Below are positions 44,852 to 61,745 of a DNA stretch of 64,000 nt, piece after piece; position 1 is the first letter of the stretch; the number at the start of each line of letters is the position of its first letter. The translations under genes were made by a program, and so were the position numbers. Below the pieces are notes generated by a model that was not told the DNA's origin, did no database searches, and saw only the letters and a program-made list of their open reading frames with translations. The DNA is from Metallococcus carri (GTDB taxonomy: Bacteria; Actinomycetota; Actinomycetes; Actinomycetales; Dermatophilaceae): the NCBI RefSeq assembly GCF_011440275.1, contig NZ_JAAOIV010000007.1, positions 124,001 through 188,000 of the forward strand. The letters are read 5' to 3'.

Positions 44852-45209
44852 GTCGGGCGAGCGGTCCCGCTCAAGGGTGGCGCGGATCGCCCAACTGGGC
44901 GTTGTGTGCGGGTGTCGCGGGTCGGGGGTGGCGCGGATCGCCCAATTGGGCGTTCTGTGCGGGTGTCGCGGATGTCCCGAGCGGGCCACCCGGACCCAGC
45001 CCACGCTCAGCATTCTTTCACCGCAAGGGTGTGCCCATAAAAGAATTGCCTCCAGCAATATTCTTGACCAATTTTGTCGGCAACAACAAATGCAGAAAGA
45101 TCAGCAATTTTTTCTTGGCATTTCCGTATCGGCAGGAGTACGTTGCCCCCTGTTAGTGCGTCGGCTGAGCCAGTCGATGCGGGGGATTTGAGAAGGTGGG
45201 GGACGGTTC
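44852..45209. repeat. Two-copy 51-bp repeat and AT-rich promoter region
   Basis: GGTGGCGCGGATCGCCCAAC and GGTGGCGCGGATCGCCCAAT begin two units 51 bp apart (44876 and 44927), each with a CCCAA.TGGG-type hairpin. They belong to the family of the eight-copy array at 61.35 kb. After them, about 45020-45140 is strikingly AT-rich for this genome and probably holds the promoter of the secreted protein gene at 45210. No gene is seen. Confidence 0.75.
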
Positions 45210-58467: not shown

Positions 58468-59418
58468 TCAGTCCTCCGGGTCGGGCGGCTCCGCACCGTC
58501 GCGCTCAGCCCACTCGAGCAGCGTGTCGAGGCGGTATGCCGTGTCGTCGATCTCGGCGTTCAGGTCACCGAGTTCGGCATACCGCTGGGGCATGGTGGCG
58601 ATCGTAAAGTCCTGCGGTTCAAGCGAATCCAGCTCATCCCAGCGAAACGGGGCCGAGACGGTGGCGGCCGGATTGCCGCGCACCGAATAGGCCGCGGCGA
58701 TGGTGTGGTCGCGGGCGTTCTGGTTGTAGTCGACGAAAACCGCCGCCGGGTCACGGTCCTTGCGCCACCAGGTGGTGGTGACGTCCTCCGGCGCCCGCCG
58801 CTCGACCTCGCGCGCGAAGGCCAGGGCGGCACGGCGCACCTCCTGGAAACCCCACTCCGGCTCGATCCGCACGTAGATGTGCAGCCCGGCACCCCCGCTG
58901 GTCTTCGGGAAGCCGCGAATTCCCAACTCCTCCAACACTTCTCGCGCGACCTGAGCCGTGCGGCGCACGCGCTCAAAGGGGGCTTCGGGCATGGGGTCGA
59001 GGTCGATCCGCCATTCGTCGGGCTTCTCGGTGTCGGCTCGTCGGGAGTTCCACGGGTGGAATTCGACGGTCGACATCTGCACCGCCCAGGCGACATCGGC
59101 CAGCTTGGTCACGCACAGCTCGTCGGCGGTGCGCTTCCACCGCGGGAAGTAGAGCTGCACGGTCTCCACCCAGGGCGGAGCGCCATGCGGCAGCCGCTTC
59201 TGGTGCACCTTCTCGCCGGTGATGCCGGTGGGATAGCGGTGCAGCATGCACGGCCGGTCACGCAGGGCGCGCACGATGCCGTCGCCGACCGACAGGTAGT
59301 AATTGACCAGGTCGAGCTTGGTGGTGCCGAGATCGGGGAAGTAGACCCGGTCGGGGTTGGAGACCCGCACGTCGAAGCCGTCGACGTCGAGGGTCACCGA
59401 GGGCGATGCCTTGGCCAT
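58468..59418 (-). CDS. LigD-type DNA polymerase/primase domain protein
   Basis: The 316-aa stand-alone LigD polymerase domain (archaeo-eukaryotic primase fold) has RIDLDPMPEAPFERV with the catalytic DxD, the KTSGGAGLHIYVRIEP motif with conserved Ser/His, and FVDYNQNARDHTIAAAYSVR. Such PolDom proteins act in bacterial NHEJ with Ku and LigD; neither partner is in this window. It starts 4 bp after the last gene of the MNIO operon, so it may be co-transcribed. Confidence 0.9.
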   Translation of the reverse strand: MAKASPSVTLDVDGFDVRVSNPDRVYFPDLGTTKLDLVNYYLSVGDGIVRALRDRPCMLHRYPTGITGEKVHQKRLPHGAPPWVETVQLYFPRWKRTADELCVTKLADVAWAVQMSTVEFHPWNSRRADTEKPDEWRIDLDPMPEAPFERVRRTAQVAREVLEELGIRGFPKTSGGAGLHIYVRIEPEWGFQEVRRAALAFAREVERRAPEDVTTTWWRKDRDPAAVFVDYNQNARDHTIAAAYSVRGNPAATVSAPFRWDELDSLEPQDFTIATMPQRYAELGDLNAEIDDTAYRLDTLLEWAERDGAEPPDPED

Positions 59419-59422
59419 GGGC

Positions 59423-59665
59423 TCAGCGATACCAGTCGTCGCCGGTGAGGAACCGGCGTTTGCCGAACCATGCGCCGCCGCCGCACAGCAGGGCGCCGAC
59501 CACGAGCACGATGGCGAGCGTCAGCATCGCGCTGTCCGACCGGGTGACGTAGATGACCCCCGACAACAATGCAGCGATCAGACAGAGCACCCCGACGATG
59601 GCAAGCGAGAGCACCAGCATCCGCAGGATGATGCCGTGCAGGGTCAGGGTGGGTCGCGGGGACAT
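59423..59665 (-). CDS. Small two-TM membrane protein of the MNIO operon
   Basis: The 80-aa protein has two TM helices (ILRMLVLSLAIVGVLCLIAA and AMLTLAIVLVVGALLCGGGA) and a short basic/aromatic tail (GKRRFLTGDDWYR). It starts 19 bp after the precursor stop, so it is probably the fourth gene of the operon. A role in placing or exporting the modified peptide is possible but unproven. Confidence 0.72.
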   Translation of the reverse strand: MSPRPTLTLHGIILRMLVLSLAIVGVLCLIAALLSGVIYVTRSDSAMLTLAIVLVVGALLCGGGAWFGKRRFLTGDDWYR

Positions 59666-59684
59666 GCGCCCATCCTGGCAGGGC

Positions 59685-59999
59685 TCAGCTCGAGCTGCAG
59701 CTACTGCCACCGCCGCACGAGGAGCCGCCACCGCAGGACGAGCTACTGCACGACGAACTGCTGCAGGACGATGACGAGCTACTGCACGAGGACGAGCTGC
59801 TGCACGAGTTGTGGTGATGCGTGCTGCCACCCACCTCGCTGCCGCCGCCAACGAGCGCCGCGTTGTTGCCGTGGCTGTTCCAACCGCTGCGTCGCCGGGT
59901 CGCGCCGCTGCCTCCGTTGACGGCCACCAGAATGACGACGAGGACGACCGCGATGATGATGATGAACACCGCGCCGACGAAGATCAGTCCGAATGCCAT
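59685..59999 (-). CDS. Membrane-anchored Cys-repeat peptide, probable MNIO substrate
   Basis: The 104-aa protein has one N-terminal TM helix (FGLIFVGAVFIIIIAVVLVV to about residue 27), a short Gly/Asn/Ser linker with THHHNS, and a tail of about 40 residues made only of Cys, Ser and Gly. Seven cysteines are spaced by 5, 6, 4, 4, 5 and 5 residues. The spacers are all Ser for the first four gaps, then GGGSS twice, ending CSSS. The gene overlaps the partner gene by 16 bp. MNIOs modify Cys in short precursor peptides, so this is the best candidate substrate. No signal-peptidase site is obvious, so it likely stays membrane-bound. Confidence 0.8.
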   Translation of the reverse strand: MAFGLIFVGAVFIIIIAVVLVVILVAVNGGSGATRRRSGWNSHGNNAALVGGGSEVGGSTHHHNSCSSSSSCSSSSSSCSSSSCSSSSCGGGSSCGGGSSCSSS

Positions 60000-60409
60000 G
60001 AATTCCCCCTTGATGGTGTGAGGCGAAGGTGGACGACCTCGCTTCGCCAGGAGACGACGAGGTCGCCGTCATACACGGTGCTCCGACGCCGCCCCGCGTA
60101 GACGTCGGCGAGCCGGATCCAGTTCCGCGCGAGGTCGTTGCGACGCAACCAGGCGATGAACTCGTCACGGTCGGTGTGGGCGCAGCCGCGGGTGGGCTGT
60201 TCGAAGCAGAACCGCACCGCGAGATCGCGCCAACCGGGCAACCACGTGACTTCCTCACAGGCCCGCTCGATCGCGTCGACCCGCTTCATCGCGAGGATCC
60301 GTGCCGTATGCCGAGCGCGTAGCGCGTCGAAGCCGTCCGGCACCCGGCCGTGCAGCAGGTCGTCGACGACCCGGTGTTGGCGCGCCGCCAGCCGCTCACG
60401 CGTGGGCAT
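59984..60409 (-). CDS. Partner protein of the MNIO (recognition subunit candidate)
   Basis: The 141-aa soluble protein starts inside the end of the MNIO gene (14-bp overlap) and ends inside the precursor gene start (16-bp overlap). It has a helical N-terminal half (RLAARQHRVVDDLLHGRVPD, TARILAMKRVDAIERACEEV), a central LPGWRDLAVRFCFEQPTRGC, and a C-terminal region (SRGNSWHSD end). In other MNIO systems (MbnC, TglI, BufC) the gene next to the MNIO encodes a protein that binds the substrate; this fits that position, but I do not see clear homology to those families. Confidence 0.65.
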   Translation of the reverse strand: MPTRERLAARQHRVVDDLLHGRVPDGFDALRARHTARILAMKRVDAIERACEEVTWLPGWRDLAVRFCFEQPTRGCAHTDRDEFIAWLRRNDLARNWIRLADVYAGRRRSTVYDGDLVVSWRSEVVHLRLTPSRGNSWHSD

Positions 60410-61277
60410 GCGAAACCCCTTGAGCCACAGCGGTATTGATCCGGTCCAGGTCGCTGCTCACCGCAGCCGCGGTGATGTCGGCGTCGCGTTCGAGCATGAT
60501 GCCAGGCAGCGGCAGGCAGCGATCGGCATACGTGCTGGTGAGCAGGGTGACCAGGGCGGTGACCTCGTCGCGGACCGGGTGGGCGTGGGTGTCGAGGTAG
60601 AGCCCGTCGCGCTCGGTGCCGCCGGCGACGTGGACATAGGCGACCTGTTCGAGCGGGAAGCGCGCGAGCTCGGCCGCCGGGTCGGTGCCGCGTGCCGTCG
60701 CACTGGCGTAGAGGTTGGCGACGTCGAGCACGAGGTGGACCCCGGTGCGGTCGACGAGTTCGGTGAGGAAGTCCGGCTCGTCCAGCTCGTCCTCGGGCCA
60801 GCTCATCAACGCAGCGATGTTCTCGACGGCGAGCGGGCGGGGCAGGGCCTGCTGGGCTTCGCGGACGTTCTCGACGAGCACCGCGAGGCTGTCGCGGGTG
60901 CGCGGGGGAGGCAGCAGGTGGCCGGCCTCCAGCACGTCACCGTGCAGCGGGTCGGGCGTCGCGGCACCTCGCACGAAGGCGACATGTTCACTGATGACGG
61001 GGGAGTCGAGGGCCTCGGCGAGATCGGCGAGGTGCTGGAGCCGGTCTGCGTCCGGCCGGCTTGCGTCGGCCAGGCCGAGGGTGACGCCGTGCGGCACGAT
61101 CGCGACACCGGCCCGGCGCAGCGCGGTGAGTTCGGTCGGCAGACGGTCGGGCCGCACGTTCTCGGCGACGACCTCGGTGAAAGTGATCCGGTCGTCGGCG
61201 GCGAGGGCAGCGATGAACTCGGCGATCGGTCGTCGCCAGGCGACGGCAGTGCCGCGCAGTTCGCTGATCCCAGTCAT
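60396..61277 (-). CDS. Multinuclear non-heme iron oxidase (MNIO, DUF692 family)
   Basis: The 293-aa TIM-barrel enzyme follows the DUF692/MNIO pattern throughout. Predicted metal or active-site residues, in order: E39/N40 (VVAENV), H63 (VPHGVTLGLAD), E97-H98 (ISEHVAF), E152-N153 (LAVENIAAL), D185 and N188 (VLDVANLYAS), H216 (YVHVAGG), D229 and H231 (YLDTHAHPV), E263 and D267 (MLERDAD). Family members (MbnB, TglH, BufB) use two or three irons and O2 to rearrange peptide cysteines into oxazolone/thioamide or related groups. Start ATG 61277 with GGGG-rich SD; a much longer frame reading through the upstream repeat array is rejected. Confidence 0.85.
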   Translation of the reverse strand: MTGISELRGTAVAWRRPIAEFIAALAADDRITFTEVVAENVRPDRLPTELTALRRAGVAIVPHGVTLGLADASRPDADRLQHLADLAEALDSPVISEHVAFVRGAATPDPLHGDVLEAGHLLPPPRTRDSLAVLVENVREAQQALPRPLAVENIAALMSWPEDELDEPDFLTELVDRTGVHLVLDVANLYASATARGTDPAAELARFPLEQVAYVHVAGGTERDGLYLDTHAHPVRDEVTALVTLLTSTYADRCLPLPGIMLERDADITAAAVSSDLDRINTAVAQGVSHAHA

Positions 61278-61349
61278 CTCGCCCCTTTCGATGCCCCTCG
61301 CGTCGTCATCGTTCCACGTGGTGCGCTGCCGAACCAGACCGAGCGCGCT

Positions 61350-61745
61350 GGGGTGGCGCCGATCGCCCAGTTGGGCGTTTTGTGCGGGGCCGCTGGGCGC
61401 TGGGGTGGCGCCGATCGCCCAGTTGGGCGTTTTGTGCGGGGCTGCCGGCGCGGGGGTGGCGCCGATCGCCCAGTTGGTCGTTTTGTGCGGGGCTCCCGGC
61501 GCGGGGGTGGCGCCGATCGCCCAGTTGGGCGTTTTGTGCGGGGCTCCCGGCGCGGGGGTGGCGCCGATCGCCCAGTTGGGCGTTTTGTGCGGGGTTGCCG
61601 GCGCTGGGGTGGCGCCGATCGTCCAGTTGGGCGTTTTGTGCAGGGTTCCCGGCGCTGGGGTGGCGCCGATCGTCCAGTTGGGCGTTTTGTGCGGGGCCGC
61701 TGGGCGCTGGGGTGGCGCCGATCGCCTAGTTGGGCGTTCTTGCGC
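61350..61745. repeat. Eight-copy tandem array, 51-52 bp unit
   Basis: Units begin GGGGTGGCGCCGATCGCCCA at 61350, 61402, 61453, 61504, 61555, 61606, 61657 and 61709. Each has a hairpin CGCCCAGTTGGGCG followed by TTTTGTGCGGGG. Copies 6 and 7 have CGTCCAGTTGGGCG, copy 8 CGCCTAGTTGGGCG and copy 3 CGCCCAGTTGGTCG, so the stem is partly eroded. A two-copy version is at 44876. Since 51 is a multiple of three, open frames run through it on both strands. The array fills the space between the MNIO operon and the next gene on the opposite strand. Confidence 0.9.

Follow-up and report, generated by a model that had tools for sequence, protein, structure and literature searches.

We analyzed a 64,000-nucleotide stretch of Metallococcus carri DNA (contig NZ_JAAOIV010000007.1, positions 124,001 to 188,000; "the window" below means this whole stretch) that carries on its minus strand a gene for an MNIO (DUF692) enzyme, followed by genes for a 141-amino acid (aa) protein and for a 104-aa protein with a single predicted transmembrane (TM) helix and a cysteine-rich C-terminal tail. 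Our favored explanation, which we consider probable, is that the MNIO and the 141-aa protein form a complex that modifies the cysteines in the tail of this single-pass membrane protein, turning the tail into a tethered chelator. More tentatively, we propose that such proteins are widespread and mostly overlooked substrates of actinobacterial MNIOs. They would be permanent single-pass proteins whose cytoplasmic Cys tail becomes, without ever being cleaved off or released, a thiooxazole-type chelator with several sites; their genes would lie next to the MNIO gene in some genera and, in Streptomyces-like genomes, away from it, and a Cys-less form of the scaffold would persist in some MNIO-less lineages.

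The enzyme, the tail protein and the 141-aa partner

The MNIO gene (60396..61277, minus strand) encodes a protein of 293 aa. This protein matched PF05114 (MbnB_TglH_ChrH) with 214 bits against a cut-off of 25 (E = 3e-63), the sole match to this family in the genome, and its sequence matches in the PDB included 3bww, 8hci and 7tcr. The PF05114 match upholds the DUF692 identity assigned to it in an earlier interpretation made from the letters of the DNA (the sequence-only reading). Residues H63, H98, E152, D185, H216, D229, H231 and E263 were invariant in all 19 aligned rows, the window included, and most of the invariant His, Glu and Asp positions aligned with 3bww. We take these residues to be the likely metal site, an assignment of ligands that draws on general knowledge of such enzymes. 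Profile and alignment comparisons show the 293-aa protein to be an MNIO-family enzyme with conserved metal-site residues. The score was far under the equivalog cut-offs of BufB, HvfB, ApyH, ChrH and MbnB; for BufB (NF050167), it reached 157.5 bits where 310 are required. The MNIO and partner genes overlap by 14 bp, the partner and tail genes overlap by 16 bp, and a 19-bp gap separates the tail gene from a gene for an 80-aa protein, so that the open reading frame (ORF) list bears out the tight packing of four minus-strand genes that had been described.

The 104-aa protein (59685..59999, minus strand) starts with a hydrophobic helix (predicted TM, aa 2-27; 59919..59996), which is followed by RRR (aa 35-37; 59889..59897), at a place where relatives also have a Lys/Arg-rich stretch, then by HHH, and finally by the tail (aa 66-104; 59688..59804), in which seven Cys stand between Ser/Gly runs. 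The ORF and the hydropathy, on which all our single-TM and two-TM calls are based, agree with the membrane protein with a seven-Cys tail seen by the sequence-only reading. No Pfam family matched it at E ≤ 0.1, and the NCBIfam model SAG1386_EF1546 reached 19 bits on the window tail against an 80-bit cut-off, which we took as low complexity. The 33 Ser/Gly codons of the tail are of seven kinds, so the tail is not a fresh microsatellite. Chance low complexity was rejected because the TM, the basic stretch and the Cys spacing recur across many genera and because Cys is the best-kept common tail residue. Among orthologous tails in six groups, all from genera other than that of the window, Cys was identical in 774 of 781 ungapped pairs (99.1%; the pairs are not independent), and Ser, Gly and His were identical in 87%, 93% and 73%, respectively. 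These alignments show a family of single-TM Cys-tail proteins, about 75-121 aa long, with conserved Cys.

The 141-aa protein (59984..60409, minus strand) had no match in Pfam or NCBIfam. Among 17 members of its family, the best Pfam result was a match of one member to one family at E = 0.077; DUF2063 (PME-type 1) had no match at E ≤ 0.1 in any of the 17, and a sequence search of the PDB gave nothing useful (best E = 1.9). An AlphaFold2 model from the alignment of the 17 sequences (pLDDT 90) predicted a helical bundle and then three strands. When 333 Foldseek candidates were re-aligned to the model, the top structure was 3dee (NGO1945; Z 7.0, 88 residues, 3.9 Å) and the second was 7dz9_C (MbnC; Z 5.0, 117 residues, 7.0 Å), with the next row at Z 3.2. 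Two points count against the likeness: a helical protein can reach a Z of 7 through a common arrangement, and Foldseek alone found no PDB match at E ≤ 0.001.

A partner-profile search of 110 loci rows found the partner fused in the MNIO frame in 34, as a separate nearby ORF in 57 and absent from 19 (30, 53 and 19 of 102 rows without repeat loci); it is thus beside or fused to MNIO in 91 of the 110 rows (83 of 102). In genus g84, it was a fused domain at 22 of 26 MNIO loci examined. Where a Nocardioides tail lies away from MNIO, the partner gene directly precedes the tail gene in five of five cases (L168, L169, L171, L244 and L245); these pairs, in G634, G572, G584, G600 and with the second tail of G545, are 5-23 kb from MNIO. 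Because the top structural matches are NGO1945 and MbnC, because fusions to MNIO occur elsewhere, and because it stays with a distant tail, the 141-aa protein is very likely the true MNIO partner, as the sequence-only reading had supposed. That it accompanies the tail rather than the enzyme fits a substrate-recognizing partner. Partners of PME-type 2, in the available text of Antoine et al. (PMC12452194), likewise have no Pfam signature, come after MNIO, have an NGO1945 (3dee)-like fold and occur in a short form. The window partner has an NGO1945-like predicted fold without the DUF2063 signature and is genetically coupled to MNIO; it differs from that description in that the Nocardioides partner can adjoin the tail gene away from MNIO and that other genera have the partner as a fusion with MNIO. 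An MNIO and its partner have been fused by design (PMC13419390, in the text available), and the fused genes found here are a natural counterpart of that construct.

Linkage and co-occurrence of Cys tails with MNIO

We found relatives of the MNIO at 24 loci, in 14 of 149 same-family genomes and in 92 of 394 same-class genomes. A single-TM Cys-tail gene stood beside MNIO in Nocardioides, Williamsia, Tsukamurella, Flexivirga and the window, and also in a second MNIO lineage (L123, L125 and L126). Among the closer relatives, the short single-TM gene comes after MNIO, usually past the partner; in Tsukamurella, the tail lies between MNIO and the partner in three of the four named loci, and the Williamsia loci have two tail genes each. 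At more distant MNIOs, the enzyme gene is preceded by the gene of a longer Cys-tail protein. A tree built from 99 MNIOs placed the window in a clade (support 100/99) where 21 of the 26 rows are single-TM; the remaining five are L005 and L006, whose matching genomes carry partner and tail at a distance, and the tailless L068-L070. A second clade (support 100/100), from another family, has four rows, three of them single-TM. L005 (N. albus) and L006 (Nocardioides sp. YR527) were considered as MNIOs without partner or tail, and this was rejected because the matching genomes, G634 and G584, have both about 18 and 23 kb away. One row of the tree (L013), titled Kitasatospora arboriphila, was nearly identical to Williamsia muralis (L012, L022) and is perhaps mislabeled or contaminated. 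Upstream of a distant MNIO in the window's family (L074, in G008), there is an ORF with a Cys-rich Ser/Gly tail and no detected TM.

Genomes were scanned with a tail profile (A3) made from 20 tails, all of them MNIO-adjacent. One copy was found at the MNIO locus in G000, G026, G080 and G122, and there was no match in G009, G058, G087, G008 and G057. The profile matched in 7 of 149 same-family genomes, 30 of 394 same-class genomes, 9 of 128 genomes of a genus set and 29 of 261 genomes of a further set; MNIO was present in 14, 92, 11 and 68 genomes of the same sets, respectively. We dropped weak matches without such a tail in G113, G114, G145, G408 and G681 (the G145 protein has a TM and a Gly/Pro tail but no Cys), a longer ORF tail with no detected TM in G239, and a match in G342 that lay elsewhere than its real tail (L123), which was missed. 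All 58 distinct genomes with a Cys tail also have an MNIO by the tail and MNIO scans; 14 of them are A3's own rows or identical copies and match by construction, and 44 are not. The Cys-tail genome counts are lower bounds, because a scan of many genomes scores just a portion of its initial candidates. The scans overlooked G584 and G600, whose tails came to light in the sequence itself and which are outside the 58. The tail was within 1.5 kb of MNIO in 29 of these genomes, about 18-19 kb away in 2 and elsewhere in 27. Of the 29 adjacent tails, 28 come after MNIO and one, in G656, before it. The 27 unlinked cases comprise 19 from genus g84 (Streptomyces-like, with genomes of 6-11 Mb) and 8 from family f11.

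We also found the scaffold, a TM with a basic stretch and a Gly-rich tail, in a Cys-less form in G291 (L147), G606 (L167), G575 (L170) and G267 (L154). These tails are rich in Asp, His, Gly or Ser, and the one Cys of the G575 protein is within the TM. PF05114 was found in none of the four genomes. The three Nocardioides copies (G291, G606 and G575) share a place beside a gene that we take to be coaE-like from its motif, and G267 is from another family. In the 128-genome genus set, six genomes had the Cys form with MNIO and three the Cys-less form without it (Fisher p = 0.012), and among all tail genomes the numbers were 58 and 4 (p = 2e-6); the genus split without the A3-row genomes was 3 against 3 (p = 0.05, calculated by hand). 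These p-values ignore kinship. Taken together, the adjacency in two MNIO lineages, the covariation of Cys with MNIO and the linkage of partner and tail agree with the sequence-only reading in pointing to the Cys-tail protein, which on these comparative grounds is quite probably the MNIO substrate.

Several observations weigh against this interpretation. The A3 profile was built from MNIO-adjacent tails, which is an ascertainment bias, and the 27 unlinked co-occurrences are by themselves weak evidence, their weight depending on how many genomes of those genera lack an MNIO. The genome counts are not phylogenetically independent; because the three Nocardioides copies share one place, the pairing of Cys-less tails with absence of MNIO amounts to about two events. 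The existence of Cys-less homologues shows that the scaffold can be retained, and has some use, even where the chemistry is absent. At the distant MNIO loci L075-L078, L110, L113, L124 and L127, no tail was found within 4 kb. The linkage in related genomes expected from the sequence-only reading largely holds, but it fails in one genus of the window's family (G009, G058 and G087), which keeps MNIO and partner with neither an adjacent tail nor an A3 match anywhere in the genome; in G009, another 10 kb on either side contained no tail. In G058 (L069), the partner gene is followed by ligD within about 0.4 kb, as if the tail gene had been lost, and the partner is without a Cys that is invariant in alignment A1 and is kept in G009 and G087. 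Finally, many relatives have an aromatic motif (WWAGG, AWFFGG) that is missing from the window tail, and the annotated neighbors between 55.4 and 63.9 kb of the window include no metal-homeostasis gene.

Membrane topology, chemistry and rival explanations

The orientation of the tail was analyzed with a set of 71 tails, of which one was dropped for having no start codon and 67 were unique, Cys-less forms included; the set leaves out L135, L136, L165, L166, L184-L192, L195-L202, L206 and L210, most of which duplicate the tails counted or are closely orthologous to them. Start codons were those nearest to the TM, 0-11 residues before its core, a choice that favors a short N-terminus. All 67 proteins had 3-11 Lys/Arg in the 25 aa past the TM core (median 6), and 65 had none ahead of it. 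The net charge difference was at least 3 in 62 proteins; the weaker difference (under 3) in the other 5 counts against the orientation given below. By the positive-inside rule, absence of Lys/Arg before the TM and their presence after it predict an N-out/C-in protein, so that a cytoplasmic tail is fairly likely. The charge pattern thus tells against the surface-displayed tail of the sequence-only reading.

We propose that a two-protein machine, consisting of the iron oxidase and its PME-type 2-like partner, would act on the flexible C-terminal Cys tail. Insertion as N-out/C-in would keep the tail cytoplasmic, close to the inner side of the membrane, where a cytosolic enzyme could reach it without export. 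Known MNIO-partner pairs convert precursor Cys to copper-binding 5-thiooxazoles (PMC13097082 and PMC13419390, in the text available), and for this reason the complex is proposed to leave a tethered chelator at the inner membrane face. Oxidation would involve each tail Cys and its backbone, and bufferins and captophorins suggest a 5-thiooxazole-type group as the likeliest product; by that analogy, a thiooxazole-type chemistry on these Cys is nearly as likely as not. The product would stay fixed in the membrane, without release, and chelate copper or another soft metal; the His residues that precede the tail would serve as additional ligands. Such a metal as the ligand of the tail is, again by analogy, a tentative assignment.

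Bufferins and oxazolins (captophorins), in the available portions of PMC13097082 and PMC13419390, share with the window system an MNIO and a required partner that act on several Cys, and metal binding, established for them, is proposed here. Their precursors are described there as having a Sec signal peptide and preceding MNIO, and their partners as DUF2063 (PME-type 1) proteins. In the window, in contrast, the tail gene follows MNIO and partner, and no positive n-region of the kind expected in a Sec precursor precedes the TM. Among the groups in PMC12452194, adjamnio-I proteins are also Cys-rich and lie next to MNIO and a PME-type 2 partner, but in the available text they have 122-293 aa and 8-21 Cys and come before MNIO, whereas the window protein has 104 aa and 7 Cys and comes after the partner. 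The adjamnio-V proteins, going by their main-text description, are very small proteins right after MNIO, like the product of the tail gene, and may overlap with the single-TM tail family; that description mentions neither a TM nor Cys.

The combination of actinobacterial MNIOs with TIGR04222 membrane proteins is in print (Antoine 2025, PMC12452194); in the available text, this system shares with ours the actinobacterial MNIO, a partner that in part is without the DUF2063 signature, and a membrane protein with a Ser/Gly/Cys C-terminal tail. Here, the protein has one TM and about 75-121 aa, its gene is usually after MNIO or unlinked, and its tail is predicted to be cytoplasmic. The sequence-only reading had named both an MNIO model and the TIGR04222 model: the first matched as given above, and the second did not match the tail protein. 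None of 20 single-TM tails matched TIGR04222 at E ≤ 0.01, whereas as a control eight of eight longer MNIO neighbors (seven upstream, one downstream) were over its cut-off, and these results rule out TIGR04222 membership. It is somewhat unlikely, in our estimate, that the single-TM proteins are stripped-down TIGR04222 relatives with a shared function, one MNIO serving both, an explanation that overlaps with tail modification as we propose it. The similar Ser/Gly/Cys tails argue for such a kinship, as do G253 and G179, which have an MNIO with an upstream longer multi-TM Cys-tail protein (TIGR04222-like by layout) together with an unlinked single-TM tail; the profile result argues against it, and the likeness is limited to low-complexity tails and may be convergent. 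At three loci (L106, L090 and L109), two longer Cys-tail genes stand in tandem ahead of one MNIO, also in a TIGR04222-like layout.

We consider it unlikely that the tail is outside the membrane and, once modified, serves as a metal scavenger at the surface or in the wall space. Antoine et al. (PMC12452194) place TIGR04222 tails in the periplasm, according to the available text, which favors an outside tail and is a point against our topology, and known bufferins carry Sec signal peptides; this location is opposed by the distribution of Lys/Arg described above, with starts 0-11 residues before the TM core. The weakest alternative, which we regard as improbable, is that the tail cysteines stay unmodified, as thiols of a metallothionein-like tail, and that the MNIO has some other peptide as its substrate: Cys-less versions exist, one genus keeps MNIO and partner without a tail, and some MNIOs modify non-Cys residues (PMC12452194, in the text available), but in the scanned genomes the Cys form occurs only with MNIO and the Cys-less form only without it, the partner gene accompanies the tail gene even far from MNIO, and tail and MNIO are adjacent in two MNIO lineages.

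Neighboring genes and significance of the tail family

The gene after the tail gene encodes an 80-aa two-TM protein (59423..59665, minus strand), which the sequence-only reading had included in the operon. A standing as a conserved part of the system is unsupported: tblastn found no relative at E ≤ 1 in the MNIO loci compared, so that its membership is unproven, and no Pfam or NCBIfam family matched over its cut-off. The gene for a LigD-type primase-polymerase (58468..59418, minus strand; TIGR02778 over cut-off), a neighbor that is not in the proposed system, begins 4 bp past the 80-aa gene. The transcription unit may therefore be longer, and this repair gene is perhaps co-transcribed with the MNIO operon.

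Tandem arrays with a 51-bp period are found at 61345-61738 of the window (7.7 copies, just upstream of MNIO) and at 44875-44971 (2 copies). They share a near-palindromic core, GATCGCCCANNTGGGCG, which has 81 exact matches in the genome compared with 0 for a reversed control. An operator special to the MNIO operon was ruled out because the core recurs these 81 times in dispersed arrays.

In the literature, outside subscription journals and supplements, we recognized no account of the single-TM family or of its unlinked members, Cys-less counterparts or charge pattern. We consider these four to be new, subject to the possible overlap of the family with adjamnio-V. In the available text of Antoine et al. 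(PMC12452194), substrate candidates were drawn from genes preceding MNIO, a rule that would miss the tail family, whose genes are mostly after MNIO or elsewhere. The family offers a concrete, testable substrate for MNIOs without a nearby one, including the fused MNIO-partner proteins of Streptomyces-like genomes, and the pairs of a Cys-less tail with absence of MNIO are a natural control. If the tail is indeed modified and cytoplasmic, MNIO chemistry would not be just a way to produce exported peptides but also a modification of a resident membrane protein.

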